Source: an uncultured Lachnospiraceae bacterium
GTDB lineage: Bacteria > Bacillota > Clostridia > Lachnospirales > Lachnospiraceae
Assembly (NCBI GenBank): GCA_947175035.1
Contig: CAMWLG010000003.1
Span: forward strand, 1 to 64,000
DNA length: 64,000 bases
Direction of reading: 5' to 3'
The notes under the pieces are model-generated. The model was not told the DNA's origin, made no database searches, and saw nothing but the letters and a program-made list of their open reading frames with translations. Shown here piece after piece: positions 6,377 through 49,293 of the stretch (position 1 is its first letter; every line of letters starts with the position of its first letter). Position numbers and translations under genes: made by a program.

Positions 6377-7465
6377 ATGAAAGAGAGAATCTATGTCTGC
6401 CATACTTATTATCATGTATATGTGACCTTCTTGAAAGAGTTAAAGCTCTCTGCCCAGGAGCAGGGCAAAGCAACGCTGGTGCTCTCTAAGATGTCCTGCA
6501 ATTTTGAGAGTTTAAAAGAGCGGGTGGAGAGTACGGGACTCTTTGAAGAGGTGCTGGAATTTGACGAGAAGAACGAGAGATGTTTTCCGGAGCTTGCCAA
6601 GTATCGACAGGATTCGGGAAATTTCATTGGGAATCTGTGGAATCGTATCCGTTTTACCAAGCGTCTGGCGAAGCTTCAGGAGCCGTACATTCCAGTGAAT
6701 TTCAGGGAATATGGGGACGTCTATGTCTATTGTGATTCAGACCCAATTGGGTATTATTTGAATCAGAAGCATATTTATTATCACGCTTTGGAGGACGGCT
6801 TGAACTGTTTGAAGAATTTTGACGCCGCCCGTTATGACAATAGGGGACATTTTGGATTGAAGGTGTTCCTGTCGAGGAAGTTGAACCTGATCTTTGTGCA
6901 GAACGGTTATGGCAGATATTGTTTGGACATGGAGGTCAATGATATCTCCCTGATCCAATACCCTTGCCCCCAGTACATTCAGGAGTCAAGGCAGGATTTG
7001 GTAGACCGGTTGACGGAAAAGGACAAGCAGCTGATTTTGCAGGCATTTATCCGGGACAAGGAGGGATTGGAGCGGCAGATTCAGGAGAGCGGCGAGGTGG
7101 GGGACAAGATTCTGATTCTGACTGACCCCTTGTGTACGCTGGACGTGCGGGAGCGGATTTTCAGGGATATCATACAGATGTATGAGGGGGAGGGGACGAT
7201 TTTCCTAAAGCCCCATCCCAGAGATGAGCTGGATTACAGGCGGTTATTTGGCGAATATCCCCAGTTTGACGCCACGGTTCCCATGGAGATGTTAAATTTC
7301 TTCCCGGGGCTTCGCTTTCGGAAGGTGGTGGCGGTGCTCACGGAGGTCAAGGCGATTCAGTTCGCGGACGAGGTCGTGCGTCTTGGGGAGGATTTCATGG
7401 ATAAGTACGAAGACCCGCTGATTCACAGGCAGAATGAGCAGGTGGGAATAGAGAGGAAAAACTGA
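6377..7465 (+). CDS. GT52-family (sialyltransferase-type) glycosyltransferase
   Basis: A 362-residue soluble protein. It has the N-terminal CHTYYHVYV segment, a central HALEDGLN motif (about residues 136-143) and KPHPRDELDY (from residue 278). The (A/E)EDG and KPHP pattern is that of GT52 lipooligosaccharide sialyltransferases and related CMP-nonulosonate-using enzymes. Because the window makes CMP-pseudaminic acid (PseB, C, H, G, I, F), this enzyme is the best candidate for adding pseudaminic acid; that is inference. Its stop codon overlaps the start of the ABC transporter gene by one base, which points to coupled expression with a flippase. Confidence 0.7.
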   Translation: MKERIYVCHTYYHVYVTFLKELKLSAQEQGKATLVLSKMSCNFESLKERVESTGLFEEVLEFDEKNERCFPELAKYRQDSGNFIGNLWNRIRFTKRLAKLQEPYIPVNFREYGDVYVYCDSDPIGYYLNQKHIYYHALEDGLNCLKNFDAARYDNRGHFGLKVFLSRKLNLIFVQNGYGRYCLDMEVNDISLIQYPCPQYIQESRQDLVDRLTEKDKQLILQAFIRDKEGLERQIQESGEVGDKILILTDPLCTLDVRERIFRDIIQMYEGEGTIFLKPHPRDELDYRRLFGEYPQFDATVPMEMLNFFPGLRFRKVVAVLTEVKAIQFADEVVRLGEDFMDKYEDPLIHRQNEQVGIERKN

Positions 7466-9204
7466 TGCGACAGATATTAAAGAAATTGCGTGTTCTTCTG
7501 GATAAAAAGCAAAAGCGCACCATGGTGGGGCTGATGTTTCTCATGATCATCGGCGCCGTGCTGCAGACGGCGGGGGTAGGACTTCTGGTACAGGTGGTGA
7601 ATATCGTGATTGATTCAGACGCGGTGCAGAACAGCCGGATTGCCTCATGGGTCTACGAGCTCTGCGGGAGTCCGGATTATGATACCTTTGCGGTGTCTGT
7701 GATGGCGCTTCTCATCGGGGTTTTTATATTAAAAAATGTTTTTTTGTTTATCCAGCAAAAGCTGACGTTTGCCTTTGTCTACACAAACCAGTTCCGCACC
7801 TCGGAGCGTATGATGCGTAATTACCTTCGCAGGGGCTATGAGTTTTATCTGAATGCGGACACGGCGGTGGTGCAGCGCAGCATCACCTCCGACGTGAACA
7901 ATATGTACGCGTTGATTCTGGCGCTTTTGCAGATGATGTCTGATGGGGTGGTGTCTCTGTTTATCATCACCTACTGCTTCATCACCAACGGCACCATGAC
8001 TGTGCTGCTGGCGGTGGTGCTGCTGGTGGTCATGGGCGGGGTAAAGACCGTCTTAAAGCCCATCATGTACAAGGCGGGAAAGGACAATCAGGACTACTAC
8101 AGCGGGCTGTTCAAATGGATCTCCCAGACGGTGCAGGGCATCAAGGAAGTGAAGATTGCGTGCAAGGAGCAGTATTTTGTGGGGGAATACAAAAAGTGCG
8201 GTCAGGGATATGTAAATGCTGTGCAGCGTTATAGTCTCTACAATAACATTCCGAAGCTGTTAATCGAGACGGCGTGTGTGGCGACCATGGTGGGATACAT
8301 GATCTATCTGGTAGTGTCGGGTGTGTCCACGGAGAATATGCTGACGGTGTTCTCCACGCTGGCGGCAGCAGCTTTCGTGTTGCTGCCTTGCGTCAACAGA
8401 ATCAATAACCAGATTAATTCGATTGCTTATTTTGAGCCTTTCTTTATGGGAGTCAGCGATAACCTGCAGGACGAGATTAGTGGGGAGAAGGTAGATATGA
8501 CCTTTGCCACGGACGAGGAGGAGAAGCTTCCCGTGAAGAAGGCGATAGAGTTAAAGGATATCACTTATGCGTATCCGAATACGGAGAAGCTGATTCTGGA
8601 TCATGCGAACCTGACCATACCTGCGGGCTCTTCCGTGGGTATCGTGGGCACCACGGGAGCGGGTAAGAGCACGGTGGTGGATGTCCTGTTAGGACTCTTG
8701 GAGGTCAGGGACGGTGTGGTGCTGGCGGATGGGACGGACACTAAGACGGAGTATCGCAAATGGTTGAAAAATGTGGGTTATATCCCCCAGATGTTTTTCA
8801 TGTTGGATGATACCATCCGTAAGAATGTGGCGTTCGGCGTGCCCGAGGAGAAGATTGACGAGGAGCGTCTTTGGGAGGTACTGAAAGAGGCTCAGTTGGA
8901 TGAGTTTATCAAGACATTGCCCGAAGGACTTGACACAGGTGTCGGTGAGCGGGGGATTCGTCTCTCCGGCGGGCAGAGACAGCGTATCAGCATCGCCAGA
9001 GCATTGTATAATGATCCGGAGGTTCTGATTCTGGACGAGGCGACATCCGCCTTGGACAATGACACTGAGGCGGCTATCATGGAGTCCATCAACCATCTCC
9101 ATGGCAGGAAGACCTTGGTCATCATCGCGCATAGGCTGCAGACGATCGAGAAATGTGATATGGTGTATCGGGTGGAGGACGGCAAGGTGAAGCGGGAGAA
9201 GTAG
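7465..9204 (+). CDS. ABC exporter/flippase, fused permease and ATPase (PglK/MsbA-like)
   Basis: A 579-residue half-transporter with six N-terminal membrane helices (about residues 20-320) and a C-terminal nucleotide-binding domain. Walker A GTTGAGKST is at about 395-403, the signature LSGGQRQR at about 500, Walker B LILDEATSALD at about 520 and the H-loop histidine at about 556. The size and a context full of glycosyltransferases match PglK-type lipid-linked oligosaccharide flippases. ATP hydrolysis is certain from motifs; the glycan cargo is inferred from neighbours. The gene overlaps the GT52 gene by one base and is followed 8 nt later by a GT2. Confidence 0.85.
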   Translation: MRQILKKLRVLLDKKQKRTMVGLMFLMIIGAVLQTAGVGLLVQVVNIVIDSDAVQNSRIASWVYELCGSPDYDTFAVSVMALLIGVFILKNVFLFIQQKLTFAFVYTNQFRTSERMMRNYLRRGYEFYLNADTAVVQRSITSDVNNMYALILALLQMMSDGVVSLFIITYCFITNGTMTVLLAVVLLVVMGGVKTVLKPIMYKAGKDNQDYYSGLFKWISQTVQGIKEVKIACKEQYFVGEYKKCGQGYVNAVQRYSLYNNIPKLLIETACVATMVGYMIYLVVSGVSTENMLTVFSTLAAAAFVLLPCVNRINNQINSIAYFEPFFMGVSDNLQDEISGEKVDMTFATDEEEKLPVKKAIELKDITYAYPNTEKLILDHANLTIPAGSSVGIVGTTGAGKSTVVDVLLGLLEVRDGVVLADGTDTKTEYRKWLKNVGYIPQMFFMLDDTIRKNVAFGVPEEKIDEERLWEVLKEAQLDEFIKTLPEGLDTGVGERGIRLSGGQRQRISIARALYNDPEVLILDEATSALDNDTEAAIMESINHLHGRKTLVIIAHRLQTIEKCDMVYRVEDGKVKREK

Positions 9205-13148: not shown

Positions 13149-13856
13149 ATGGAAAAAAGAATTGCAATCATCACGGCGCGGGGCGGCAGCAAGCGGATTC
13201 CCCGGAAGAATATCAAGAAGTTTTGCGGCAAGCCGATTCTGGGGTATTCCATACAAGCGGCGTTGGAGGCGGCAATCTTTGACACGGTGATGGTTTCCAC
13301 GGATGACGAGGAGATTGCGGCGATTGCGAGGGGATGCGGCGCGGAGGTGCCTTTCTTTAGAAGCGAGGCGACGGCGAACGATTTTGCCACCACCAATGAC
13401 GTCCTGTTGGAGGTGCTGGCGGAGTACGAGAAGCGGGGGGAACATTTTGACACAGCGGTGTGCATTTATCCCACAGCCCCCTTTGTGACGGCGGATAAGA
13501 TCAGGAACGCCGTGGAGGATCTGGAAGGGAGTGACGCGGACACTCTGATTCCGGTGGTAGCTTTCTCTTATCCTCCCCAGCGGGCAATGATCATGAAAGA
13601 GGGCAGGCTTGTGTTTGAGTACCCCGAGTATTTGGACAGCCGTTCTCAGGATTTGACGCCCCATTATCATGACGTAGGTCAGTTCTATGCATTTAAGACA
13701 GAGGCTTTCAGGCAAAACAGGAAGCTGATGGTGGGAAATATTCTGCCCTTGGTGATGTCTGAGTTGGAGATACAGGATATCGACAGCGAGACGGACTGGG
13801 AGCTTGCGGAGATGAAATACCGACTGATGCAAAGCAAAGAGACGGAGATTGACTGA
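13149..13856 (+). CDS. pseF: Pseudaminic acid cytidylyltransferase (PseF)
   Basis: A 235-residue nucleotidyltransferase of the CMP-sialic acid synthetase family. The N-terminal TARGGSKRIPRKNIK is the CTP-binding signature; VSTDDEEI and IYPTAPF follow as in the family, with DIDSETDW near the end. It activates pseudaminic acid with CTP to CMP-Pse. The PseF reading rather than NeuA comes from the short length and the neighbours PseH, PseI and PseG. GGAGG lies 8 nt upstream of the ATG. First gene of the operon. Confidence 0.85.
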   Translation: MEKRIAIITARGGSKRIPRKNIKKFCGKPILGYSIQAALEAAIFDTVMVSTDDEEIAAIARGCGAEVPFFRSEATANDFATTNDVLLEVLAEYEKRGEHFDTAVCIYPTAPFVTADKIRNAVEDLEGSDADTLIPVVAFSYPPQRAMIMKEGRLVFEYPEYLDSRSQDLTPHYHDVGQFYAFKTEAFRQNRKLMVGNILPLVMSELEIQDIDSETDWELAEMKYRLMQSKETEID

Positions 13857-13889
13857 CGAAAAATCATGGAGACCGGATGGGAGAATTGC

Positions 13890-15551
13890 ATGGGTGAACA
13901 AGGCACGGGCAGGCGGATTGCGCTGCTCTCGAATGTGAATATGAATGCCGTGATCCGCACGCTGCAGAAGGACGCTGAAGTCTATGAGGCGGAAGGATAC
14001 GGAAACGAGTTGGGGATTCTCATGAACCCGGCATCCTCCTATCATGTCTTTGCGTCGGAGATTACGTTTCTTGTAATTGACTTGATGGAGCTTTTGGAAC
14101 ATGAGCTGGATGAGGAGTCTGCCAAGGTGCGTGTGGAGGACTGGTTTGCCGGCTTTGAGAATGCCATGACCCCGGACGGGATTTATTATATCAGTGACGT
14201 CTATCTGTGGGGATTGGAGGCGGAGACGGCGGATGCCTTGGTGAGCCGCACCCGGTTGGAAGGAATCTGGGAGAGTGAACTTCGTGAGCTTTGCAGGCAT
14301 CATGCCAATGTGCGGATTTTGCCATATCATCATATGGTAGCGTGCTTGGGGGAGGAAAATGCTTTTTCCCCGAAAATGTGGTATATGGGGCGCATCCTTC
14401 TAAGCGGTGAGGCGGGAAAAAGGCTGGCAGCCCTCATATTGCAAAAGGTGATATTGGAGAGCAGGACACCAAAGAAGGTGTTGGCGCTGGATTTGGACAA
14501 TACGCTCTGGGGCGGTCTGGCGGGGGAGCATGAGCATACGCCAATCGTGCTTTCGGAGGAGCATACAGGGCTGGCTTACAAGAATCTGCAGCGTGTGATA
14601 TTGCAGATGCAGCGGCAGGGAGTGCTGCTTGTCATCATCTCCAAGAATAATGCGGAGGATGCGGAAAAAATTTTGCAGGGGCACCCGCATATGGTGCTTC
14701 GTGCAGAGCATTTTGCGGCAAAGCGGATCAATTGGAACGCCAAGAACGAGAATTTGGAGGAGATTGCAAAGGAGTTGAATCTGGGTCTGGATTCCTTTGT
14801 ATTCTGGGACGATAATCCGCAGGAGCGGTTGTTGGTGCAGGAGACTCTTCCCATGGTGACAGTGCCGGAGTTTCCGGACAAGCCGGAGGAATTGGCTTCC
14901 GCCATGACAAAGATTTATGGCGAGTATTTTCAAAAGGCGGTGCTTACGGCGGAGGATTTGGACAAGACAAAGCAATATGCGGACAATGAAGCCCGGGGCA
15001 GATTACAGCGGAGCGTGGGGAGCTTCGAGGATTATTTGGAGAAGCTGCAAATTGTCATTACCAGAGTGGATGCAGCGGAGCATTTGAATCGCTTGGCGGA
15101 CATGCTGAATAAGACGAACCAGTTCAACCTGACCACCAGACGGCACGATCTCAGCGAGGTGCAGTCCATGGTGCAGGATCGGGGGAAGCGGGTGTTTCTG
15201 TATCGTGTGGAGGACTGTTTCGGGGATAACGGCGTGGTGGCGGCGGCGATTGTGGATGTGACAGGGGAGATTCCCGTCATCGAGGAGTTTGTCATGAGCT
15301 GTCGCGTCATGGGCAAGAATATCGAGCAGGGCATTGTCAGTGACGTGGAGGAGTCCTTGCGGCAGGAAGGTTTTGGGCGTGTCAGGGGAATCTATATTTC
15401 CACGGCGAAGAATAAGCCCGTGGCGGATTTGTACAGGCAGCTTGGCTACCGGGAGGTGGCGGGGCAGGCGGACTTCGGGGCAATGGGCAAGGTGTATGAG
15501 ATTTCCTTGGATAAAGTTCCGACCAGAGGGTTTCAAGGAGTCATCCGATAG
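13890..15551 (+). CDS. FkbH-like HAD-IIIC protein (putative acyl-ACP-forming enzyme)
   Basis: A 553-residue protein with three parts: an N-terminal region (about 1-190), a HAD phosphatase-type domain with LDLDNTLWGG (from about residue 200; the first Asp is the nucleophile position) and ISKNN, and a C-terminal GNAT-like region (about 365-545). This is the FkbH architecture. Characterised FkbH-type enzymes take 1,3-bisphosphoglycerate and load a glyceryl group onto a stand-alone carrier protein; an ACP gene follows 29 nt downstream. The start at 13890 is preferred because GGGAG lies 6 nt before it; an in-frame ATG at 13866 has no such site. Its place between PseF and PseH suggests it makes an acyl group for the nonulosonic acid. 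Confidence 0.8.
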   Translation: MGEQGTGRRIALLSNVNMNAVIRTLQKDAEVYEAEGYGNELGILMNPASSYHVFASEITFLVIDLMELLEHELDEESAKVRVEDWFAGFENAMTPDGIYYISDVYLWGLEAETADALVSRTRLEGIWESELRELCRHHANVRILPYHHMVACLGEENAFSPKMWYMGRILLSGEAGKRLAALILQKVILESRTPKKVLALDLDNTLWGGLAGEHEHTPIVLSEEHTGLAYKNLQRVILQMQRQGVLLVIISKNNAEDAEKILQGHPHMVLRAEHFAAKRINWNAKNENLEEIAKELNLGLDSFVFWDDNPQERLLVQETLPMVTVPEFPDKPEELASAMTKIYGEYFQKAVLTAEDLDKTKQYADNEARGRLQRSVGSFEDYLEKLQIVITRVDAAEHLNRLADMLNKTNQFNLTTRRHDLSEVQSMVQDRGKRVFLYRVEDCFGDNGVVAAAIVDVTGEIPVIEEFVMSCRVMGKNIEQGIVSDVEESLRQEGFGRVRGIYISTAKNKPVADLYRQLGYREVAGQADFGAMGKVYEISLDKVPTRGFQGVIR

Positions 15552-15580
15552 GAAGCGGAAAAGGAAAGGTGAAGGAAGAG

Positions 15581-15817
15581 ATGGCAAACATAGAATTACA
15601 GGAGAAGATTATAGCGCTGATCGAGGAGAACTTAAAGCTCCCCGCGGGAACCATTACCCCTGACACACAGATTGCGGATGTGGAGGAATGGGGTTCTCTG
15701 GAGCATGTGATGATCATCGGTGAGTTGGAGCAGCGGCTCGGGGTGTCGATTCCTCTGGATGACGCCTTCGAGCTTACGAGTATGGAGGAGCTTCTTGAGA
15801 AGGCGGGTTGTCTATGA
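15581..15817 (+). CDS. Acyl carrier protein
   Basis: A 78-residue acidic, helical protein. The phosphopantetheine attachment serine is Ser39 in EEWGSLEHVM; the residue before it is Gly rather than the usual Asp, as often seen in carrier proteins paired with FkbH-type enzymes. A GTG start at 15569 would add four residues; the ATG at 15581 follows AGGAAGAG and is preferred. Its last codons overlap the PseH-like gene (ATGA), so the two are translationally coupled. No fatty acid synthesis genes are nearby, so it is a dedicated carrier, probably for the FkbH-like product. Confidence 0.85.
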   Translation: MANIELQEKIIALIEENLKLPAGTITPDTQIADVEEWGSLEHVMIIGELEQRLGVSIPLDDAFELTSMEELLEKAGCL

Positions 15818-16359
15818 GTGTGACATTGCGTGACATCCAAGAGACGGATTTGGAAAATATCATGAATTGGCGCATGGCGGAGGACATCACCCGTTATATG
15901 AACACCAATCCCAAGCTTACCATGGAGGGGCAGCGTAAGTGGCTGGCTTCCATACGGCAGAATCCGGACGTGCGGTATTGGATGATAGAGGTGGACGGGG
16001 AGAGCGCCGGGGTGATCAATCTCACGGGCCTCGAGAAGCCTGACGGGAATCTGGGCTGGGCATATTACATGGGAGTGCAGCGACTTCGCGGCATCAAGAC
16101 TGCCCTCGCGTTGGAGATGAGTATGTATGACTATGCCTTGCTTACATTGGGTAAAAACGCGGTTTATAGTGATGTGTTTGCCTTGAATGCAGGCGTGATC
16201 CAGCTTCACAAGCTCTGTGGCTGTGAGGTGGTGGAGGAGCGTAAGAGCGCAGTGTGCAAGGAGGGCGTGTACTATGACGTGGTCTATATGCGCATGACGG
16301 CGGAGCGTTGGGTCAAGCTACGGCAGGAAAAGAAATATGAGAAGATTGTGTTCGGGTAG
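15814..16359 (+). CDS. pseH: PseH-like GNAT N-acyltransferase
   Basis: A 181-residue GNAT protein: NWRMAEDITRYM near the start, a central substrate strand YYMGVQRLRGIKTALALE where the P-loop for the pantetheine donor is expected, and FALNAGVIQLHKLCGCE, typical of amino-sugar N-acetyltransferases. In the known pathway PseH acetylates the C4 amino group of the UDP-altrosamine intermediate using acetyl-CoA. Overlap with the ACP gene raises the possibility that the donor here is an acyl-ACP instead. The ATG at 15814 overlaps the ACP stop. Confidence 0.8.
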   Translation: MSVTLRDIQETDLENIMNWRMAEDITRYMNTNPKLTMEGQRKWLASIRQNPDVRYWMIEVDGESAGVINLTGLEKPDGNLGWAYYMGVQRLRGIKTALALEMSMYDYALLTLGKNAVYSDVFALNAGVIQLHKLCGCEVVEERKSAVCKEGVYYDVVYMRMTAERWVKLRQEKKYEKIVFG

Positions 16360-16437
16360 CGGCCGATTACAACAGAGCGTTGGCAGAGTTTCGGCGGTGT
16401 GAACAATATGCCACATATACGGCAGAAATGAGGAAGT

Positions 16438-17499
16438 ATGAACAAAGAGATTAGAATTGGGAGCCATATCATCAGTGAACAGTCTCCCACCTTTATCGTG
16501 GCGGAGATGTCCGCCAATCATCTGATGGATTATGACCGGGCGGTGGCAATCCTACAGGCGGCGAAGGACGCTGGGGCGGACGCCATCAAGATTCAGACTT
16601 ATACGGCGGATACAATCACGCTGGATTGTGATGATCCTTGCTTTCAGATTACTCAGGGAACCATCTGGGACGGAACCACATTGCATAAGCTGTACCAGAC
16701 GGCGTACACCCCTTGGGAATGGCAGCCAAAGCTTCAGGAGGAGGCGCGCAGGCTGGGGTTGGAATTTTTCTCTTCCCCCTTTGATTTTACATCGATTGAT
16801 TTTCTGGAAGAGTTAAATGTGCCTGCCTATAAGGTGGCAAGCTTTGAGATCAATGATATTCCTTTTATCAGAAAGATTGCCAGGCTGGGCAAGCCGGTCA
16901 TCTTTGCCACGGGGATTGCCAGGCTGGCGGATATTGACTTGGCGGTGAGAACCTGTAAGGAGGAGGGGAACGAAGATGTGATCCTCTTGAAATGTACGTC
17001 CTCTTATCCCGCGCCTTATGAGGATATTAATTTGAAAACGATTCCCTCCATGGCGCAGACCTTTGACTGTATCGCGGGGCTTTCCGATCACAGTATGGGA
17101 CACGCGGTGGCGGACGCGGCGGTGGCTCTGGGGGCAAAGGTGGTGGAGAAGCATCTGACATTGTCCCGGGCGGACGGCGGTGCAGACGCGGCATTTTCCA
17201 TGGAGCCTGCGGAGTTTCGGATCATGGTGGAGGATATTCGCAAGATTGAGAAGGCCTTGGGCAGTGTCACTTACGATCTGACAGAGAAGCAGACCAGGGA
17301 GAGGGAGCATTCCCGTTCTCTTTTCGTGGCGGAGGATATGAAGGCGGGGGATGTGTTTACACCGCAAAACTTACGCTCCGTGCGCCCTGCCTGTGGATTG
17401 CCGACGATGTATTATGAGGAGCTCTTGGGGAAGCGAATTAAGCGGGATGCCAAGCTTGGCACGCCCATGAGTTGGGAATTGGTGGATTTCGGGGAGTAG
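16438..17499 (+). CDS. pseI: Pseudaminic acid synthase (PseI)
   Basis: A 353-residue member of the NeuB family: FIVAEMSANH, KIQTYTADTIT and FSSPFDFTS in the TIM barrel, then an antifreeze-like/SAF domain (about residues 290-350). It condenses phosphoenolpyruvate with 6-deoxy-AltdiNAc to make pseudaminic acid. The KIQTYTADTIT form favours PseI over NeuB. AGGAAGT lies just upstream of the ATG. A 78-nt gap separates it from pseH; no promoter is obvious in that gap. Confidence 0.88.
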   Translation: MNKEIRIGSHIISEQSPTFIVAEMSANHLMDYDRAVAILQAAKDAGADAIKIQTYTADTITLDCDDPCFQITQGTIWDGTTLHKLYQTAYTPWEWQPKLQEEARRLGLEFFSSPFDFTSIDFLEELNVPAYKVASFEINDIPFIRKIARLGKPVIFATGIARLADIDLAVRTCKEEGNEDVILLKCTSSYPAPYEDINLKTIPSMAQTFDCIAGLSDHSMGHAVADAAVALGAKVVEKHLTLSRADGGADAAFSMEPAEFRIMVEDIRKIEKALGSVTYDLTEKQTREREHSRSLFVAEDMKAGDVFTPQNLRSVRPACGLPTMYYEELLGKRIKRDAKLGTPMSWELVDFGE

Positions 17500-17505
17500 G
17501 AAGAG

Positions 17506-18549
17506 ATGTTTATCATTCGGGCGGACGGAAATGCCAAAATAGGAGCGGGACATTTGATGCGCTGTCTGACCATCGGGGAGGCGCTGTCTCCTCATCAGGA
17601 GGATATATTATTTTTATGCGCGGATGAGGATTCTGCGCTGCTGGCGGAACGCGGTGGTTTCCGTGTGGGGGTGCTTCACACGGACTATCGACAGATGGAG
17701 ACGGAGCTTGCCGCATGGGATTCCTGGGTGCGGGGCAGCGGGAATACCATTCTCGTGGACAGCTATCATGTGACAGACTCCTATTTGACAAGTCTTAAAA
17801 AATATGGCACCGTGTATCTGATGGATGATATGCAAAGACAAGCTTATCCTGTGGACGGGGTCATAAACTATAATCTTTTTGCAGATCCGGATGCTTATGG
17901 AAAAATATACGGGATAGACCAGAATGCTCCTCAGAACAATTGTGACAAAAGTGTCAGATTTTATCTCGGGGGCGATTATGTGCCTCTGCGGGCACAGTTT
18001 CGCGATGTGGAGTATCCGGTGCGGGAATATGTGTCGGACGTGCTGATCACCACAGGGGGCGCGGACGCGGACAATATTGCGGGCGAGATCTTAGAGACCA
18101 TTGACCGGCCGGACATTACTTATCATGTGTTGGTTGGCCGTTTTAGCCCGCATTTTGAAAGCTGGCGGGCGCGGGCGGCGGAGTCTTCGCATGTGCGAAT
18201 TTATTTTGATCTGCGGGATATGGCGGGTTTGATGCACCGCTGTGATCTGGCGGTGAGCGCAGGGGGCAGCACTTTGTATGAGCTTGCGGCGGTGGGGGTT
18301 CCGTTTATTTGTTTTTCCTATGCAGAGAATCAGGAGGCGCTGGCTGAGTATATGGGGAAGAAACATGTGGCGGGCTATGCCGGGGCATGGCATTTGGACA
18401 GGCTTGGTACTCTAAGGCGGATGGAGGCGCTTTTCTCCGAATTGTGTGGGGACAGGGCATTGCGGGAGCAATATTCTGAAAGGGAGCGCAGACTCATTGA
18501 CGGGCAGGGGGCAGACCGGCTGGCAGAGGTATTATGTGGCTTGAGGTGA
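17506..18549 (+). CDS. pseG: UDP-2,4-diacetamido-2,4,6-trideoxy-altropyranose hydrolase (PseG)
   Basis: A 347-residue GT-B-like hydrolase. RADGNAKIGAGHLMRCL near the N-terminus contains the glycine-rich loop and catalytic His of PseG, and SAGGSTLYELAAVGVP (about residues 250-265) forms the UDP-binding site. It removes UDP from the diamino sugar before PseI acts. Six nucleotides separate it from pseI and it closes the core operon. All of PseF, H, I and G are therefore here, with PseB and PseC at 47-49 kb. Confidence 0.88.
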   Translation: MFIIRADGNAKIGAGHLMRCLTIGEALSPHQEDILFLCADEDSALLAERGGFRVGVLHTDYRQMETELAAWDSWVRGSGNTILVDSYHVTDSYLTSLKKYGTVYLMDDMQRQAYPVDGVINYNLFADPDAYGKIYGIDQNAPQNNCDKSVRFYLGGDYVPLRAQFRDVEYPVREYVSDVLITTGGADADNIAGEILETIDRPDITYHVLVGRFSPHFESWRARAAESSHVRIYFDLRDMAGLMHRCDLAVSAGGSTLYELAAVGVPFICFSYAENQEALAEYMGKKHVAGYAGAWHLDRLGTLRRMEALFSELCGDRALREQYSERERRLIDGQGADRLAEVLCGLR

Positions 18550-18589: not shown

Positions 18590-19444
18590 GTGAATTTGAA
18601 CAGTGCAAGTACATTCAGGAAAATAATATATATCGTGTCCGCCGCGTTGGTATTTGGGCTGCTCTTTTTGCTTACTTTTCCGGACAGGCAAAAAAGTCTG
18701 GTGCGGACAGAGTACCCTGTGGTCGTTCTGGGAGACAGCATTATGGGGCAGTGCAGGGATGAGACCGCGGTGGCGGCATTTTTGAGTGATATGCTGGATC
18801 GGCCTGTGTTTAACGGAGCATTTGGCGGCACCTGCATGGCGCTTCAGGAGGATGGGGTGCCCTCTGATTATGCCACGGAGCTTCTTAATATGGTGAGTAT
18901 CTCCAAGGCGCTTGCAGCGGATGATTTTGGCGTGCAGCAGACAGTGCGGAGCCGAAGGGAAATTTCGGATTATTATACTGATGTGGTGGACGAGCTGGAG
19001 TGTATTGACTTTCAGCAGGTGGAGATTCTGATTCTTGCTTTTGGTGTCAATGATTATCATGCGGGGGAAGCTGTGGATAATCCGTTGGATCCGTTGGATG
19101 AATCGACTTATGGCGGCGCGCTCAGAAGCGTGTTGACCACTCTGCGGCAAACCTATCCCCATATGAGAATCCTGTTGGTGACGCCCACTTACACATGGTA
19201 TCGCTCCAACGGGCTGACCTGTGAGGAGTATGACACGGGTTCGGTCTATTTGGAGGAGTATGTGGAGAAGGAGCTCGCCATCGCGGAGGAGTTTCAAGTG
19301 GAATCCATTGACTTGTATCATGATGTCTATCCCCATACCGTGTGGGAGGATTGGCAGATTTATACGGAGGACGGTATTCATCCCAATGAGAACGGGAGAA
19401 AGCTGATCGCAAAAATCATTGCAAAACAGATAGAGGAAAGATAA
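18590..19444 (+). CDS. SGNH/GDSL-family hydrolase or acyltransferase, membrane-anchored
   Basis: A 284-residue protein with an N-terminal membrane helix (about residues 8-28) and an extracellular SGNH domain: GDSIMGQ (block I), GAFGGTC (block II), GVNDYH (block III) and DGIHPN (block V). The start is GTG at 18590 or TTG at 18596, both after GATGAGGAT. It resembles the C-terminal half of the SGNH protein at 57-1493, including the GALR and HPNE segments, but lacks its long N-terminal region. It follows pseG by 40 nt and precedes a GtrII-like gene by 2 nt. A role in O-acylation or deacylation of a surface glycan is likely but unproved. Confidence 0.8.
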   Translation: MNLNSASTFRKIIYIVSAALVFGLLFLLTFPDRQKSLVRTEYPVVVLGDSIMGQCRDETAVAAFLSDMLDRPVFNGAFGGTCMALQEDGVPSDYATELLNMVSISKALAADDFGVQQTVRSRREISDYYTDVVDELECIDFQQVEILILAFGVNDYHAGEAVDNPLDPLDESTYGGALRSVLTTLRQTYPHMRILLVTPTYTWYRSNGLTCEEYDTGSVYLEEYVEKELAIAEEFQVESIDLYHDVYPHTVWEDWQIYTEDGIHPNENGRKLIAKIIAKQIEER

Positions 19445-29862: not shown

Positions 29863-32343
29863 ATGAGCGAACAGGTTTTACAGATGAAATATCATCCGGC
29901 CAAGAAGGAAGTAGAATTCCATCGTTTCCAAAATGGACAGGAAATCGCCCTTAAAAGCGACAGCAAGCTCGTGGCGTATATGAGCTTGAAGGGAAAATTT
30001 GTGCTGCAGGATCATGGAAACGCTTTTTTTGAGGATATAGCAAATGAGTTTGATGGTTTGGATGCCATTGAGATGCAGGTAGTCACAACCAAGATGGATT
30101 ACGAGGACTTTGTGCAGATGGTGGAGTATTACAATGCCGAGCCGAAAGCATGTAAGATCACGCCGTCCCTGATTGCGGAACTTCCCGATATGGCGCATAC
30201 CTTTTCCGAGGTCAAGAAATATGGTGAGCAGGCGGCTGAGATTTTGAGCAGGCATAGACAGAATCTGTTCGAGATACCGCTTGAGAATGAAAATGTCAAA
30301 AAGAGTGCGGACAGCTTTGCCGAGCAGATTGATGAAGAGCGGAGAAATGTCCGGGATAAGATTAACAGCTTGAATGACAATGCTGTCAGTTTGTGCTTTA
30401 CCGGTGTGTACAGTGCCGGTAAGTCTACTTTGATAAATGCGCTTCTTGGGTATAAGATACTTCCCGAGAAGATTACTTCCGAGACTGCTAAGATGTTCTG
30501 TATTTCCAGTCCCAGACCTGATGAAAATGTGATGATCACGTTTGAAATCAATGGTTCTTACGCGGTATTGGAATGGAATAAGGTGAAGATGCGCTTTGCA
30601 TTTACACTGGCGCCCTCTGGAAATGAGACCAAAAACGCGATTCAGTGTGAGGTGGATCGGGTGGCGGAGGAGAAGCTGGCCCAGCATGAGCAGATCCGGG
30701 CGATTTTGACCATGTTGAATGGGATGGATGATGTGTCAGCGGACATCAGGATCCGCTTTCCTGTTGCGCTGGATCGTCCCAATGTTCAGTATATTATTTA
30801 TGACACTCCCGGTACTGACAGCAATTACGCGGAGCATCAGACAGTGCTCATGGATGCATTGTCAGAGCAAAAGCAGTCCATACTGATATTTGTGGCTGCT
30901 CCCAACAAGACAGAGGGGAGCGGGAATAACGCGCTGTTAAAGTATCTGAAAGAGGCTGAGGAGAAGGACAGCAAGACCAGTATCGATATCAGCCGTTCAC
31001 TGTTTGTCATCAACTGGTCTGACTGTATCGACTCGGATGCCAGAAAGGATTTGCAGCACGAGGAGATTAAGTATAAGGATGACGATTCATTCTCTATCAG
31101 GCTTGCGGACAAAAAGCTGTTCTTCCTCTCTGCGAGGTATGGCTATGCGGCCAAGGCCATGAGAAATGGGATTGCTTCCGAGAAGGATCAGTCTGATTTT
31201 TATAAGGGTCTGAATAATATGACAGACAAGTTCGACGGGTTCTGCTATCGGGAGAATCGATGTGCTATGTCAGAGTTTGCGACCAAACGCATGCATGAGC
31301 GGTGTGAGGATGCATTGAAGGATGCCCAGGAGAAGAAGGATGACATCTCTGTCTTGGAAGTGGCTACCGGGCTGTATGCTTTGGAGAGCGAAATTTTACA
31401 GTATGGTGAAAAGTATGCCTCTGCCGTGAAGGCGTCCGCCATCATTGACAGCGTGGACAAAGCATTGTCAAAGTTGAGTAACCGCGCCGTGTCATTGAGA
31501 GAGAGTAATCGTGAAGAAATCAAGTCCATTGAGAAAAATATTGTGGAACTGCGAAGGACGATCAACGAGGCGATAGAGCGTGAGTACAGCGTGTCTTCCA
31601 TTCCGGAGAATATGCCGCTCCCAGAGGAGGTCAGCAAGACGTTGGGGCTGGACAGGGCGACCCTCTATAGTACAATTGTGGGCAGTACCAAGAATTACAT
31701 GGATAGGGAACTTCGAGGGTGGTTCTTAGGTCTTTTGGGAAGGGTGAAGGTCAAGGACAGAGACAAGGATAATGTCCGCGATATGATCAACCGCGCGATT
31801 GACGAGTACACGGATCAGTTCCTTACCCAGAGGAAGAATTTGTTGGAAAATCAGCGGGATGTATTTATGAACGCGGTGAAGCAGACGATCATGGAGAACG
31901 GTAATATCAGTAAATCCGCTAAGAAATTTTTCCTGGATGTGCCGGTTCCGCAGGTGGTGAAGCCGGGCATTACCAATTGGGGAGAATTGTACGATTCTCA
32001 TTGCCGAACCGAGAAATTCCTGATGTTCAAGGGGGAATATCTGGATAAGACGGGATTTATCCAGGATGTGGAGAAGATGCTGGTGGAGATTGCGGACAGT
32101 ATGTGCGAGGATTACAGCAACGATTACCGCAATTCCCTGGAATCTCTGTTAATGCAGATTAAGACGCAGTTCGAGGGGAATTTGGATATTTACTCTCTAT
32201 ATATGAAAGCTATGGTGGAGAGCCGTGACGCCATGCAGCAGCTTGGAGAAAAGGTGGCGGATGTGGCTACAGAGCTGTTTGACTGTCAGAAGCAGTTAAA
32301 TGACATTATTTGGAATCTAAGGTTGACATCGTTCTGGCTGTAA
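29863..32343 (+). CDS. Dynamin-like GTPase
   Basis: An 826-residue cytoplasmic protein. The GTPase domain starts at about residue 175: G1 GVYSAGKST (181-189), G3 DTPGTD (314-319) and a G4-like NWSD (384-387) in place of NKxD. An N-terminal region of about 170 residues precedes it, and the C-terminal half is long and helical (coiled-coil at about 530-570). No membrane helix. Bacterial dynamin-like proteins remodel or repair membranes or act in phage defence; nothing here decides between these. Own promoter and GGGAGG ribosome binding site; no second dynamin gene beside it. Confidence 0.85.
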   Translation: MSEQVLQMKYHPAKKEVEFHRFQNGQEIALKSDSKLVAYMSLKGKFVLQDHGNAFFEDIANEFDGLDAIEMQVVTTKMDYEDFVQMVEYYNAEPKACKITPSLIAELPDMAHTFSEVKKYGEQAAEILSRHRQNLFEIPLENENVKKSADSFAEQIDEERRNVRDKINSLNDNAVSLCFTGVYSAGKSTLINALLGYKILPEKITSETAKMFCISSPRPDENVMITFEINGSYAVLEWNKVKMRFAFTLAPSGNETKNAIQCEVDRVAEEKLAQHEQIRAILTMLNGMDDVSADIRIRFPVALDRPNVQYIIYDTPGTDSNYAEHQTVLMDALSEQKQSILIFVAAPNKTEGSGNNALLKYLKEAEEKDSKTSIDISRSLFVINWSDCIDSDARKDLQHEEIKYKDDDSFSIRLADKKLFFLSARYGYAAKAMRNGIASEKDQSDFYKGLNNMTDKFDGFCYRENRCAMSEFATKRMHERCEDALKDAQEKKDDISVLEVATGLYALESEILQYGEKYASAVKASAIIDSVDKALSKLSNRAVSLRESNREEIKSIEKNIVELRRTINEAIEREYSVSSIPENMPLPEEVSKTLGLDRATLYSTIVGSTKNYMDRELRGWFLGLLGRVKVKDRDKDNVRDMINRAIDEYTDQFLTQRKNLLENQRDVFMNAVKQTIMENGNISKSAKKFFLDVPVPQVVKPGITNWGELYDSHCRTEKFLMFKGEYLDKTGFIQDVEKMLVEIADSMCEDYSNDYRNSLESLLMQIKTQFEGNLDIYSLYMKAMVESRDAMQQLGEKVADVATELFDCQKQLNDIIWNLRLTSFWL

Positions 32344-45378: not shown

Positions 45379-46947
45379 ATGAATTTTCTCACGAAAAAAT
45401 TAAAACTTACATATGTTGAAATGACATTCCTGACCCTGTTTGTCTGCATGTTGTTTTTAGAGGGTTATAAGGGCTTTGAAGCTTCCGGACAAAATTATTT
45501 TCATATATTTTTGAACGGAGAGGAGATTGGCGCCGTGGCGGACGAGGACACGGCGAGGAAACTTTTGATAGAGGCCCGCAGGGAGCTTGCGTCCACGAGC
45601 GACGAACTGATTTTTATCGAGGCGGACATGACCGTGGAGGGCGAGGAGGCACTCTGGGGGGCGCTGGACAAGGAAGAGACCATACGTTCCCGCATGACGG
45701 AAGTTCTGCGAAGGAATATCAAAGAGACGATGCATCGGTCATACACGTTGAAGGTGAACGAGTACATGGTCAATCTGGGCAGTGCGAACGAGGTGCAGAG
45801 GCTGCTGCAGGCGGCAGTTGACAAATATGACAGCGAAGGTTTGTTTCATGTGGAGCTCTCCCGGGACACAAACAGGGAGCTTGGTGCCCTGACGGCAAAT
45901 GTGATGAGGAAAGAGGACGAGAGCGAAGAACAGGTTTCCGGCTATGTGGCCGCCGGGGTGGAGGCTGTCATGGCGCAGATAGGAAAGAATGTGTACGATG
46001 GCAGAGAGAAAGGTTTCGAGGACTATGACCTGGGGCTGAAATCCATGAATTTTGCGGAGGAAGTGGAGATTGTGGAGGCGTATCTGCCGGAGAGTCAGCT
46101 TTCCACCTTGGAGCAGGCGATTGATGAGGTCATCAAGGAGCGGGAGACGCCCAGCGAGTACACAATCGTGTCAGGCGACACACTTTCGGAAATCGCCATA
46201 AAGGTCAATATTCCCATAGACAAGATTGTGGAGCTCAACAGCGACAAGCTGGAAAATGAGAATTCTACGATCCGTGTGGGGGACAAGCTGATCATCACCG
46301 TGCCGGAGCCGGAGCTTTCCGTGGAGCGCATGGAAGAGAATTATTATGAAGAAAGCTATCACGCGGACATTATTTATATAGAAAATGATAATTGGTACAC
46401 CAATCAGACGGTAGTGCATCAACAGCCATCCACGGGATTTCGCAAAATTGTGGCGGATGTGTATTATCTGAACGACAAGGAGGTCTCCAGAGAGATTTTA
46501 AAGGAAGAAGTCTTGATGGAGGCGGTTCCCAAGATTGTGGAGCGCGGAACGAAGATTCCACCCACGTATATCAAACCAATCTCCGGTGGCAGACTCTCTT
46601 CGTCCTTTGGCAGACGAAATGCGCCCACCAAGGGAGCCAGCACTTACCATAAGGGCGTTGACTGGGCGGTTCCCACTGGAACGGCTGTATATGCATCCTG
46701 TGGCGGTACGGTCGCAAGAGCGGGCTGGGGAAGCGGCTACGGTTATGTGGTGTATATCAATCATGAGGACGGCAAGCAGACTCGCTATGGACATCTGTCC
46801 AAAGTGTTGGTGAAAGCGGGGCAGACAGTAAAACAAGGCGAGCGGATCGCGCTGAGCGGCAACACCGGTGTGAGCACAGGACCTCACTTGCACTTTGAGA
46901 TTCTCGTGAATGGGACTGCGGTGAATCCGCTGAATCAGCTGAATTAA
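45379..46947 (+). CDS. Cell wall endopeptidase with LysM, G5 and M23 domains
   Basis: A 522-residue envelope protein. One membrane anchor near the N-terminus (about 15-32), an unassigned region, a LysM peptidoglycan-binding domain (YTIVSGDTLSEIA, about 255-300), a G5 domain (about 325-395) and a C-terminal M23 domain with zinc ligands in HKGVDW and GPHLHFE and the catalytic-site GHLS. All metal ligands appear present, so it should be an active peptidoglycan endopeptidase. The domain set is common in clostridial cell wall turnover enzymes. Monocistronic, flanked on both sides by the dispersed repeats. Confidence 0.9.
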   Translation: MNFLTKKLKLTYVEMTFLTLFVCMLFLEGYKGFEASGQNYFHIFLNGEEIGAVADEDTARKLLIEARRELASTSDELIFIEADMTVEGEEALWGALDKEETIRSRMTEVLRRNIKETMHRSYTLKVNEYMVNLGSANEVQRLLQAAVDKYDSEGLFHVELSRDTNRELGALTANVMRKEDESEEQVSGYVAAGVEAVMAQIGKNVYDGREKGFEDYDLGLKSMNFAEEVEIVEAYLPESQLSTLEQAIDEVIKERETPSEYTIVSGDTLSEIAIKVNIPIDKIVELNSDKLENENSTIRVGDKLIITVPEPELSVERMEENYYEESYHADIIYIENDNWYTNQTVVHQQPSTGFRKIVADVYYLNDKEVSREILKEEVLMEAVPKIVERGTKIPPTYIKPISGGRLSSSFGRRNAPTKGASTYHKGVDWAVPTGTAVYASCGGTVARAGWGSGYGYVVYINHEDGKQTRYGHLSKVLVKAGQTVKQGERIALSGNTGVSTGPHLHFEILVNGTAVNPLNQLN

Positions 46948-47102: not shown

Positions 47103-48098
47103 ATGTTAAATAACAAAGTTGTTTTGATCACAGGCGGAACGGGGAGCTTTGGTAAGGCGTTTACCAAATATGTGCTGACCCACTATACGCCCAAGAAGAT
47201 TATTATTTATTCCAGGGACGAGTTCAAGCAGTTCCTCATGCAGAATGAATTTAAAGAGTACGCGGACAAGCTTCGTTTCTTTATCGGGGACGTGCGGGAT
47301 AAGGAGCGTCTGGTCAGGGCGTTGGAGGGTGTGGATTATGTGATACACGCCGCTGCCTTGAAGCAGGTGCCCGCCTGCGAGTACAATCCCAACGAGGCGA
47401 TCAAGACCAATATCCACGGCGCGCAGAATGTAATTGACGCTTCTCTGGATACCGGTGTGAAGAAGGTGGTGGCATTGTCCACGGACAAGGCGGTGAATCC
47501 GGTAAATCTTTACGGCGGTACGAAGCTGGTTTCGGACAAGCTGTTTATTGCGGCGAATGCCTATGCCGGGGTTAAGGATATCTGCTTTTCCATCGTGCGC
47601 TACGGCAATGTGGCAGGAAGCAGGGGCTCCGTCATCCCCAAATTTTACGATATGATTAAAAACGGCTGCACGGAGCTCACCGTGACAGATTATCGCATGA
47701 CGCGCTTCTGGATCAGTCTGCAGGAGGGTGTGGAGCTGGTGATCAAGGCGTTGGAGGAGTCCACAGGAGGAGAGACCTTTATCTCTAAGATTCCTTCTTT
47801 CAAAATCACGGATCTTGCGGAGGCGATGCTACCCGGATGCAAGACAAAGGAGATCGGCATCTATCCCGGCGAGAAGCTTCACGAGATTATGGTGACAGTG
47901 GAGGACTCCCTGACCACCTATGAATATGATAAGCATTTTATTGTTTATCCTCAGGTGAAATGGAATAGCAAGCAGAAGATCAACGAGTCCGGCAAAAAGG
48001 TTGAGGAGGGGTTCTCTTACAGCTCCGGCAATAATACGGAATGGTTGAGCGTGGAGCAGATTCGCGAACGCTTAAAAACGCTTGATTTGGAGAAATGA
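47103..48098 (+). CDS. pseB: UDP-N-acetylglucosamine 4,6-dehydratase, inverting (PseB)
   Basis: A 331-residue SDR enzyme. NADP-binding GGTGSFGKAF, HAAALKQVPACEYNP, STDKAVNPVN and YGGTKLVSDK (catalytic region) match PseB/FlaA1. It converts UDP-GlcNAc to the 4-keto-6-deoxy-L-arabino sugar, the first step to pseudaminic acid. Standard length. The stop lies 1 nt before the pseC start, so the pair is coupled; the remaining pathway genes are 30 kb away. Confidence 0.92.
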   Translation: MLNNKVVLITGGTGSFGKAFTKYVLTHYTPKKIIIYSRDEFKQFLMQNEFKEYADKLRFFIGDVRDKERLVRALEGVDYVIHAAALKQVPACEYNPNEAIKTNIHGAQNVIDASLDTGVKKVVALSTDKAVNPVNLYGGTKLVSDKLFIAANAYAGVKDICFSIVRYGNVAGSRGSVIPKFYDMIKNGCTELTVTDYRMTRFWISLQEGVELVIKALEESTGGETFISKIPSFKITDLAEAMLPGCKTKEIGIYPGEKLHEIMVTVEDSLTTYEYDKHFIVYPQVKWNSKQKINESGKKVEEGFSYSSGNNTEWLSVEQIRERLKTLDLEK

Positions 48099-48099
48099 G

Positions 48100-49293
48100 A
48101 TGAATGAATTGGCAATTTATGGTGGGGCTCCCGTGAGGGAGACCCCCCTTCATTATGGAAAACAGTATATTGATCAGGCGGATGTGGATGCGGTTGCCAA
48201 GACATTGACAAGCCCTGCACTTACCGGCGGGCCTGAGATTGCACAGCTTGAGGGTAAGCTCTGTGAGATTACCCATGCAAAATACGCGGTGGTGGTGAGC
48301 AACGGAACGGCGGCGCTCCATCTGGCGGCTCTGGCAGCGGGTTTTAAGGAAGGGGACGAGGTCATTGTCAGTCCCATCACCTTTGCCGCTTCCGCCAACT
48401 GCATCCTCTATGTGGGGGCAAAACCTGTGTTTGCGGACATTAATCCCGAGACATACAACATAGACCCTGCCTCCATAAGAAAACTGATCACGCCCCGCAC
48501 CAAGGGAATCGTGGCGGTGGATTTCACAGGACAGGCGGTGGAATTGGACGAGATACGGGCAATCTGTCAGGAACATCATTTGCTTTTGATTGAGGACGCT
48601 GCCCATGCCATCGGCACAAAGTATAAGGAGCGGCCTGTGGGCAGTATTGCCGATATGACCTGTTTTAGCTTCCATCCGGTGAAGACTGTCACCAGCGGGG
48701 AGGGCGGCGCCATCACCACCAATGATGAACAGCTCTACCGCAAGCTTTTGCGCCTTCGCAGCCATGGAATCACCCGAAACCGGGACGAGATGGTGCATCC
48801 CACGGACGCAGCGTGGTACAATGAACAGGTGGAGTTGGGGTTCAATTACCGGTTGACGGATATTCAGGCGGCGCTGCTCATCAGCCAGCTGGACAAGCTG
48901 GAGATGTTTGCGGCAAGACGCAGAGCGATCGTGACAAAATACAACGAGGCCTTTGCTCAGATGCCGGAGATACAGGTGCAGCGGGAGATTGTGGAGTCAG
49001 ATACCACGAGGCATCTCTATATTTTGCGGCTGAGACTGGAGAAATTAAAGTGTGACAGAAGACAATTCTTTGACGCCCTGTGCGCGGAGAATATTGTTCC
49101 ACAAGTACACTATCTTCCCGTTTATTGGCATTCCTATTATGAAAAGCTCGGCTACGGGAAAGGTCTTTGCCCCAACGCGGAACAGTACTACCAAGAGTCC
49201 ATGAGTCTTCCCCTGTACTATTCCCTGTCAGACACAGAGGTGGAAGATGTCATCACCGCGGTGAGAAAGCTGGTGGACTATTTCCGCATATGA
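48100..49293 (+). CDS. pseC: UDP-4-amino-4,6-dideoxy-N-acetyl-altrosamine transaminase (PseC)
   Basis: A 397-residue PLP aminotransferase of the DegT family. LAIYGGAPVRETPLHYGKQYID, SPALTGGPEIAQLE and SFHPVKTVTSGEGG (PLP lysine) are PseC-like. It aminates the PseB product at C4 with glutamate. The ATG at 48100 follows TTGGAGAA inside the 3' end of pseB. Direct PseB-PseC pairing supports the PseC call over other sugar transaminases. Confidence 0.9.
   Translation: MNELAIYGGAPVRETPLHYGKQYIDQADVDAVAKTLTSPALTGGPEIAQLEGKLCEITHAKYAVVVSNGTAALHLAALAAGFKEGDEVIVSPITFAASANCILYVGAKPVFADINPETYNIDPASIRKLITPRTKGIVAVDFTGQAVELDEIRAICQEHHLLLIEDAAHAIGTKYKERPVGSIADMTCFSFHPVKTVTSGEGGAITTNDEQLYRKLLRLRSHGITRNRDEMVHPTDAAWYNEQVELGFNYRLTDIQAALLISQLDKLEMFAARRRAIVTKYNEAFAQMPEIQVQREIVESDTTRHLYILRLRLEKLKCDRRQFFDALCAENIVPQVHYLPVYWHSYYEKLGYGKGLCPNAEQYYQESMSLPLYYSLSDTEVEDVITAVRKLVDYFRI

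Follow-up and report, generated by a model that had tools for sequence, protein, structure and literature searches.

A Lachnospiraceae pseudaminic acid operon with an FkbH-like enzyme and a dedicated acyl carrier protein: a predicted route to N7-glyceroyl pseudaminic acid

A six-gene operon of an uncultured gut bacterium of the Lachnospiraceae (assembly GCA_947175035.1) holds genes for an FkbH-like enzyme and a stand-alone acyl carrier protein (ACP) among genes for the synthesis of pseudaminic acid (Pse). The operon is located within the first 64,000 nucleotides of contig CAMWLG010000003.1, the stretch that we analyzed as a whole and refer to as the window. The gene content favors, by our estimate somewhat better than evenly, an operon that makes Pse activated with cytidine monophosphate (CMP) and acylated at N7 via the dedicated carrier protein, most likely with a glyceryl group (N7-glyceroyl). 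The support includes the full set of pse genes, the location of the FkbH and ACP genes inside the operon, and the FkbH match being the only one in the 93 percent complete genome (which also yields four PP-binding and six flagellin matches). We infer both the glyceryl identity of the acyl group and the ACP dependence of the PseH-like enzyme from sequence. The reading is plausible, and its support is better than could be known from the letters of the stretch and a list of its open reading frames, on which a preliminary description of the operon was based.

The preliminary description gave the gene order as pseF, FkbH, ACP, PseH-like GNAT, pseI and pseG, and profile matches bear this out for all six genes, which lie on the forward strand (Table 1); the proposed ATGA, in which the end of the ACP gene overlaps the start codon of the GNAT gene, is found at 15814-15817. 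PseF, PseG and PseI exceed the NCBIfam equivalog cut-offs, as do PseB and PseC, whose genes, absent from that description, are 29 kb downstream of the operon in the same window; therefore, the whole Pse pathway is present. The window also encodes a GT52-like protein, a candidate for moving the finished sugar onto a surface glycan.

In the proposed pathway, PseB and PseC, as assigned by family, would convert uridine diphosphate (UDP)-GlcNAc into UDP-4-amino-4,6-dideoxy-AltNAc. The FkbH-like enzyme, judging from its family, would charge the phosphopantetheine of the ACP with the glyceryl of 1,3-bisphosphoglycerate. With this charged ACP as donor in place of acetyl-coenzyme A (CoA), the PseH-like GNAT would then add glyceryl to the 4-amino group, the later N7 of the nonulosonic acid. 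PseG, PseI and PseF would complete CMP-Pse5Ac7Gra, and the GT52-like transferase would attach Pse5Ac7Gra to a surface glycan. The mass shift of +30 Da relative to N-acetyl Pse, predicted previously, is in error: by arithmetic, replacing N-acetyl with N-glyceroyl adds CH2O2, or +46.005 Da, in agreement with published data on the di-O-methylglyceroyl Pse of Campylobacter jejuni (+74, m/z 317 to 391; PMC3068675).

Table 1. Genes of the operon, other pathway genes of the window and VOC proteins of related loci (L numbers are our locus designations)
Feature	Sequence	Position	Strand	Evidence
pseF, CMP-pseudaminic acid synthetase	window	13149..13856	+	TIGR03584 275.3 bits, cut-off 205.7
FkbH-domain HAD-IIIC enzyme, proposed glyceryl transferase/phosphatase loading the ACP	window	13866..15551	+	TIGR01686 282.8 bits, cut-off 146.65
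Stand-alone ACP, phosphopantetheine Ser in GSL	window	15569..15817	+	PF00550 37.8 bits, cut-off 21
PseH-like GNAT, proposed acyl-ACP:UDP-4-amino-AltNAc N-acyltransferase	window	15814..16359	+	TIGR03585 81.4 bits, below cut-off 93.1
pseI, pseudaminic acid synthase	window	16438..17499	+	TIGR03586 479 bits, cut-off 340
pseG, UDP-sugar hydrolase	window	17506..18549	+	TIGR03590 181.3 bits, cut-off 153.55
pseB, UDP-GlcNAc 4,6-dehydratase (inverting)	window	47103..48098	+	TIGR03589 539.7 bits
pseC, aminotransferase	window	48082..49293	+	TIGR03588 467.3 bits
GDSL/SGNH protein, possible O-acyl modifier	window	18590..19444	+	PF13472 49.5 bits
GT52/polysialyltransferase-like protein, candidate nonulosonic acid transferase	window	6377..7465	+	PF07922 36.6 bits and PF07388 32.2 bits, both above cut-offs
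VOC protein (fused)	L044	7889-8290		scored
VOC protein	L047	7188-7598		scored
VOC protein	L092	4803-5213		scored
VOC protein	L050	10487-10894		scored
VOC protein	L052	6138-6515		judged by eye
VOC protein	L059	5843-6238		judged by eye

The FkbH-like enzyme belongs to its family by domain score, DxDxT motif and cysteine. An N-terminal region is followed by a HAD domain and a C-terminal GNAT-like fold; DLDNT starts at residue 209 and SCRVMG at residue 478, with Cys479 at the place of the SCRxMG cysteine that we take to be a mark of the family. Both Asp residues and the Thr of DxDxT, as well as the SCRVMG cysteine, are invariant in 43 aligned homologues. About 200 residues precede the HAD domain, and the polyketide FkbH enzymes are shorter than this one; residues 1-199 have no Pfam match, and the gene possibly starts at a later ATG, at 13893. 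The AlphaFold model (predicted local distance difference test, pLDDT, 90.5) has its best match in the Protein Data Bank (PDB) to 3slr (Bacteroides BF1531, a part with a phosphatase domain), followed by weaker matches to GNAT folds. The ACP has a PP-binding domain with its serine, Ser43 counting from the GTG start. In the polyketide systems for tetronate and methoxymalonate units, an FkbH-domain enzyme is likewise combined with a stand-alone ACP, and in tetronate clusters the two are given as the likely makers of glyceryl-ACP; there, however, the glyceryl enters a polyketide, not an amino sugar (PMC7489565).

Outside Pse loci, an MBOAT-like gene, identified by eye, occurs near FkbH in seven of 11 stretches (L051, L052, L053, L054, L056, L059, L061). 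Some stretches of this type also have an SGNH/DltD-like gene, an arrangement that recalls Dlt D-alanylation with FkbH in the place of DltA; glycerylation of surface polymers by such loci is possible.

The PseH-like GNAT (ACYLTRANSFERASE) is modeled by AlphaFold with a full GNAT fold (pLDDT 96.7). In the PDB it matches SpeG spermidine acetyltransferases best; the PseH of Helicobacter pylori (4ri1), the structure of which was solved with acetyl-CoA (PMC4363471), matches with a template modeling (TM) score of 0.81. Trp19, Arg20 and Asn125 do not vary across the 106 loci compared, and alignment with C. jejuni PseH puts Arg20 at H. pylori Arg30, modeled against the uracil of the UDP-sugar, and Asn125 at H. 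pylori Asn131, which contacts pantetheine (PMC4363471). Thus, the enzyme shares the GNAT fold and the UDP-sugar arginine with the PseH proteins of H. pylori and C. jejuni (4ri1, 4xpk) but differs from them in falling below the PseH equivalog cut-off and in lacking the CoA loop discussed below. The cut-off itself, considered as a sign of a donor switch, was rejected: FkbH-linked PseHs of four genomes (G099, G198, G274, G135) exceed it, so it is no donor marker. For example, both the FkbH-linked PseH of L049 (118 bits) and that of a Halanaerobium locus without FkbH (L176, 138 bits) pass.

A second GNAT, just past the end of the window (C3:65454-65984), was tried as the true PseH; it also scores 81.4 bits on TIGR03585 and has a canonical RGRGVG loop. 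It follows a second DegT aminotransferase (the pair spans C3:64310-65984 of the genome; 2311-3435 and 3455-3982 of L005). Two points make this candidate unlikely in our judgment: its DegT partner scores 259 bits on the PseC model, below the cut-off of 423.5, and GNATs similar to it come after WecE-like aminotransferases at four loci of other genomes (L072, L073, L079, L087), where no other pse gene was found in the short stretches around them.

The pyrophosphate of CoA is bound by a loop with the motif [Q/R]xxGx[G/A]. The window enzyme has RLRGIKTA here, without G-x-G/A and with Lys at position 4. In H. pylori PseH, Gly103 is a contact in this loop (PMC4363471), and C. jejuni PseH retains G-x-G (LKGVG). 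We scored the loop as the presence of G-x-G/A in the stretch that follows strand beta-4 in 106 loci, after removal of three loci without PseH and six duplicates; L218, with no Pse context seen, was left uncounted. With an ACP gene within 5 kb, the loop is lost in 75 of 83 loci and kept in eight; with no ACP within 5 kb, it is kept in 18 of 23 and lost in five (Fisher p 3e-10, relatedness ignored). After thinning by identity of a wider set to 59 rows, 18 of the 21 PseHs that have an ACP no farther than 500 bp away lack the loop, and 30 of the 38 others retain it. Plain loci without an ACP keep RGKG[LI]A, for example, those of Halanaerobium (L176) and Erysipelotrichaceae (L177). The loop is also lost beside an ACP outside the FkbH group, as in L210, where the ACP overlaps PseH, and in L244, from the class of a gammaproteobacterial record; three GNATs that touch an ACP gene in stretches with no pse gene (L291, L294, L296) lack it as well. 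Loss of the loop is, then, a suggestive mark of an ACP-linked PseH. In one further locus (L091 of G276, 7173-8138), PseH is fused to a MaoC-like domain and the loop is kept (RGKGIA); no pse genes were found in the 17 kb read there, and the MaoC-like domain might supply a hydroxyacyl-CoA or another CoA thioester.

The FkbH-ACP-PseH block is not confined to this genome, which the preliminary description had left as a possibility. A scan of named genomes with a PseH alignment produced 121 relatives, and the 80 best among them were retained for analysis (all counts out of 80 refer to these). The six-gene arrangement is not a matter of chance: in 65 of the 80 loci, an ACP gene lies within 500 bp and an FkbH gene within 700 bp of PseH, as measured between stop-to-stop frames, and 61 of these 65 also have pseI in the stretch. 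The other 15 comprise three loci with both ACP and FkbH farther off, six with an ACP and no FkbH in the stretch, and six with neither. By record title, the block-bearing loci are mostly from Lachnospiraceae, many of them Acetatifactor, with one from Treponema and one from Selenomonadaceae; cultured strains with these genes include Acetatifactor muris DSM 23669 (L113) and Mobilisporobacter senegalensis DSM 26537 (L170, the same locus as L049). The ACP profile was built partly from loci on which it was then used. From 64 genomes matched in one search, 30 short loci were checked and four new wide stretches taken; further searches contributed wide stretches from 11 of 42, 16 of 20, two of four and 11 of 11 matched genomes.

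FkbH itself is found at E<=1e-30 in 61 of 299 genomes of the same family; in addition to G000, nine stretches with a close FkbH and 11 with a more distant one were examined. The gene is common away from Pse loci, in most cases accompanied by an ACP and frequently next to MBOAT-like genes. This would fit an ordinary Pse operon that carries FkbH and ACP as passengers with a role in a different glycan of the region, an explanation that we find very improbable. The window FkbH belongs to a separate group of near-full-length matches at 39-100 percent identity, present in 10 of the 299 genomes including its own; the remaining matches, at 29-37 percent identity, cover mostly the HAD and C-terminal parts. 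Seven of these 10 genomes keep PseH alongside, in the order FkbH-ACP-PseH, which speaks against a passenger role; the other three (L043, L045, L050) have FkbH and ACP together and no PseH match.

A census based on pseI and independent of PseH covered 256 genomes from what we took to be the order of the window's family. Among the 34 genomes with pseI, the FkbH-ACP-PseH block is present at six loci, that of the center genome included; at the other 28, some of them cut by contig ends, the profile detects no PseH of the window type. The genes of five of these 28 were listed: an ATP-grasp ligase-like gene, identified by eye, is near pseI in three (L333, L338, L360), and a GNAT of a different type, with RGKGFG, is encoded in L349. 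Because so many pseI loci lack the window-type PseH and some have other enzymes, the FkbH route would be one branch among several. The ATP-grasp ligase-like genes (L338 5934-7151, L333 9875-11077, L360 10015-10959) hint at a possible amino-acyl route.

Several observations weigh against a glyceryl-ACP donor for the window enzyme. The 80-locus sample is biased toward the FkbH type because the scan used two patterns from seven FkbH-linked PseHs, one of them adjoining the loop. The association of loop loss with an ACP has exceptions in both directions: five FkbH-linked PseHs have a G-x-A loop (L106, L110, L113, L118, L122); the loop is kept despite an ACP within 5 kb in L094, L213, L215, L280, L281 and L283, with the ACP within 100 bp in L283 and L094; and it is lost with no ACP found in the stretch in L093, L147, L159, L160 and L174 (the genome of L159 has two FkbH genes elsewhere). 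Independent-pairs counts were made on trees built after removal of the loop columns. A set thinned by identity to 77 rows, and limited to loci that have pseI or two pse genes, gave five supported pairs, with a mean of 1.7 the same way vs 0.1 the opposite way, and the wider 59-row set gave 1.1 vs 0.4, neither being significant. The loop evidence is thus not proof, because the independent origins are too few for significance and exceptions go both ways. The column of the general acid Tyr138 does not separate the groups either, because His (His132 in the window) prevails with an ACP (80 of 83 loci) as well as without (18 of 23). Lys133, considered as a second CoA marker, was discarded: it is poorly conserved in both groups, with K or R in just eight of the 23 PseHs without an ACP. 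Furthermore, the window ACP has GSL vs DSL in nine listed FkbH-linked ACPs, and the ACP may carry acyl groups other than glyceryl.

It is quite unlikely, in our view, that the acylations are divided differently, with the PseH-like enzyme acetylating N7 from acetyl-CoA, and FkbH and ACP glycerylating an oxygen or N5 via another enzyme, such as the GDSL protein. There is a precedent for such a position: C. jejuni NCTC 11168 has a glyceroyl-derived group on Pse as well but, unlike the predicted product of the window, on N5 and methylated (di-O-methylglyceroyl), linked to Cj1295 and hypothesized to be exchanged after N5 deacetylation (PMC3068675, which cites Logan et al. 2009). A gene of the GDSL type comes after pseG in many of the 80 loci, and the G-x-A loop of the five FkbH-linked PseHs, together with the four genomes whose FkbH-linked PseHs exceed the equivalog cut-off, would also fit conventional acetylation. 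However, in the 65 block-bearing loci, the ACP gene overlaps PseH or is no more than 500 bp away, with FkbH also there, and modification of N5 in C. jejuni is proposed to depend on an aminopeptidase-like protein that removes the N5 acetyl. In the window, 39 distinct proteins were scanned: 29 against Pfam, in some cases together with NCBIfam, and 10 more against NCBIfam, one of which was run against both. None of the 39 matched a family of aminopeptidases or sugar deacetylases, the nearest thing being an M23 endopeptidase (45379-46947).

Partner genes in related loci bear on which acyl group the ACP would carry. A VOC protein similar to methylmalonyl-CoA epimerase is encoded beside PseH, fused to it or next to the ACP in several loci of the FkbH type (L044, L047, L049, L092, L163 and L165), and a VOC protein next to FkbH-ACP recurs in Pse and other glycan loci; the four that were scored reach 51-76 bits on TIGR03081, all below the cut-off of 115. 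One idea is that such a protein could epimerize the alpha carbon of the acyl-ACP. Four other Pse loci (L094, L171, L209, L244) combine an ACP with genes that, identified by eye, represent at least two of the FabG-, AMP-ligase-, LuxE- and LuxC-like types, in place of FkbH. Both observations are compatible with a donor that is an acyl-ACP of another kind, for which the FkbH-like enzyme would load a different short acid, or the glyceryl would later be epimerized, oxidized or methylated, before the PseH-like enzyme transfers the product. We regard this as unlikely for the window: from pseF to pseG, the operon contains no such extra enzyme, a VOC gene included, and FkbH is the sole candidate there for activating an acid. 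In a metagenome-assembled genome titled Gammaproteobacteria (L157/L248), an ACP-PseH pair comes one gene after a flagellin-like gene; no FkbH match was found in that genome.

The preliminary description regarded the predicted route as a little-described branch of nonulosonic acid synthesis. This holds for the gene set, which we did not find described in the literature searched, but not for the molecules, N7-glyceroyl Pse and N5-(di-O-methylglyceroyl) Pse being already known. Tannerella forsythia ATCC 43037 bears Pse5Am7Gra and has CMP-Pse5Am7Gra in its nucleotide-sugar pool (PMC6388019), so the glyceroyl is present before transfer to the glycan, and group and site are those predicted for the window; its sugar differs in also having an N5 acetimidoyl. 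The T. forsythia glyceroyl gene was called elusive in 2018, and the pse genes of this bacterium, too, are interrupted between pseF and pseG by open reading frames without assigned function, which were set aside (PMC6120980). In the Aeromonas group II flagellar glycosylation islands, as described in one report, an ACP and acyl-handling genes lie downstream of pseH and, as in the window, pseBC are apart from the remaining pse genes; unlike the window, the ACP comes with a 3-oxoacyl-ACP reductase, an AMP-dependent synthetase, LuxE and LuxC, the pertinent part of the report names no FkbH, and its authors read the genes as fatty acid synthesis (PMC7874193). The four loci with FabG-, AMP-ligase-, LuxE- or LuxC-like genes resemble these islands in acyl-handling gene content. 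ACPs have also been reported in flagellar glycosylation islands of Enterobacteriaceae (PMC4875605), and the term 'acyl carrier' is absent from the main text of a 2026 survey of Clostridium Pse clusters (PMC13317340). Among the papers listed by literature searches, which covered few subscription journals and so are no proof of novelty, none links FkbH to Pse, and none combines FkbH, glyceryl and a glycan.

The window also encodes, farther downstream than its glycan genes, a dynamin-like GTPase (29863-32343), with weak NCBIfam matches under the cut-off.

A broader view, which we advance tentatively and hold at somewhat less than even chances, is that a class of PseH has come to use a dedicated ACP instead of CoA as its acyl donor, with interchangeable feeding modules: FkbH, for glyceryl, here, and FabG-, AMP-ligase-, LuxE- and LuxC-like enzymes elsewhere, optionally joined by a VOC epimerase-like partner that possibly sets the configuration of the acyl group. 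The FkbH version would then be the missing genetic basis of N7-glyceroyl Pse, that of Tannerella included, and the FkbH-ACP module would donate glyceryl to bacterial surface glycans in general.

The acyl groups of nonulosonic acids influence the recognition of a bacterium by hosts and phages. The enzymes that add non-acetyl groups to these sugars are poorly known, the glyceroyl of T. forsythia being one named open case, and knowledge of nonulosonic acid-modifying enzymes was called scarce in a 2019 review (PMC6388019). If the proposed route is correct, it would provide candidate genes for a sugar modification that is already known but was described as genetically elusive, and the existence of an acyl-ACP-using GNAT in nucleotide-sugar metabolism would limit what PseH annotations can be trusted for. 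With these three genes, which many Lachnospiraceae share, cultured strains included, the question becomes testable by means of recombinant proteins.

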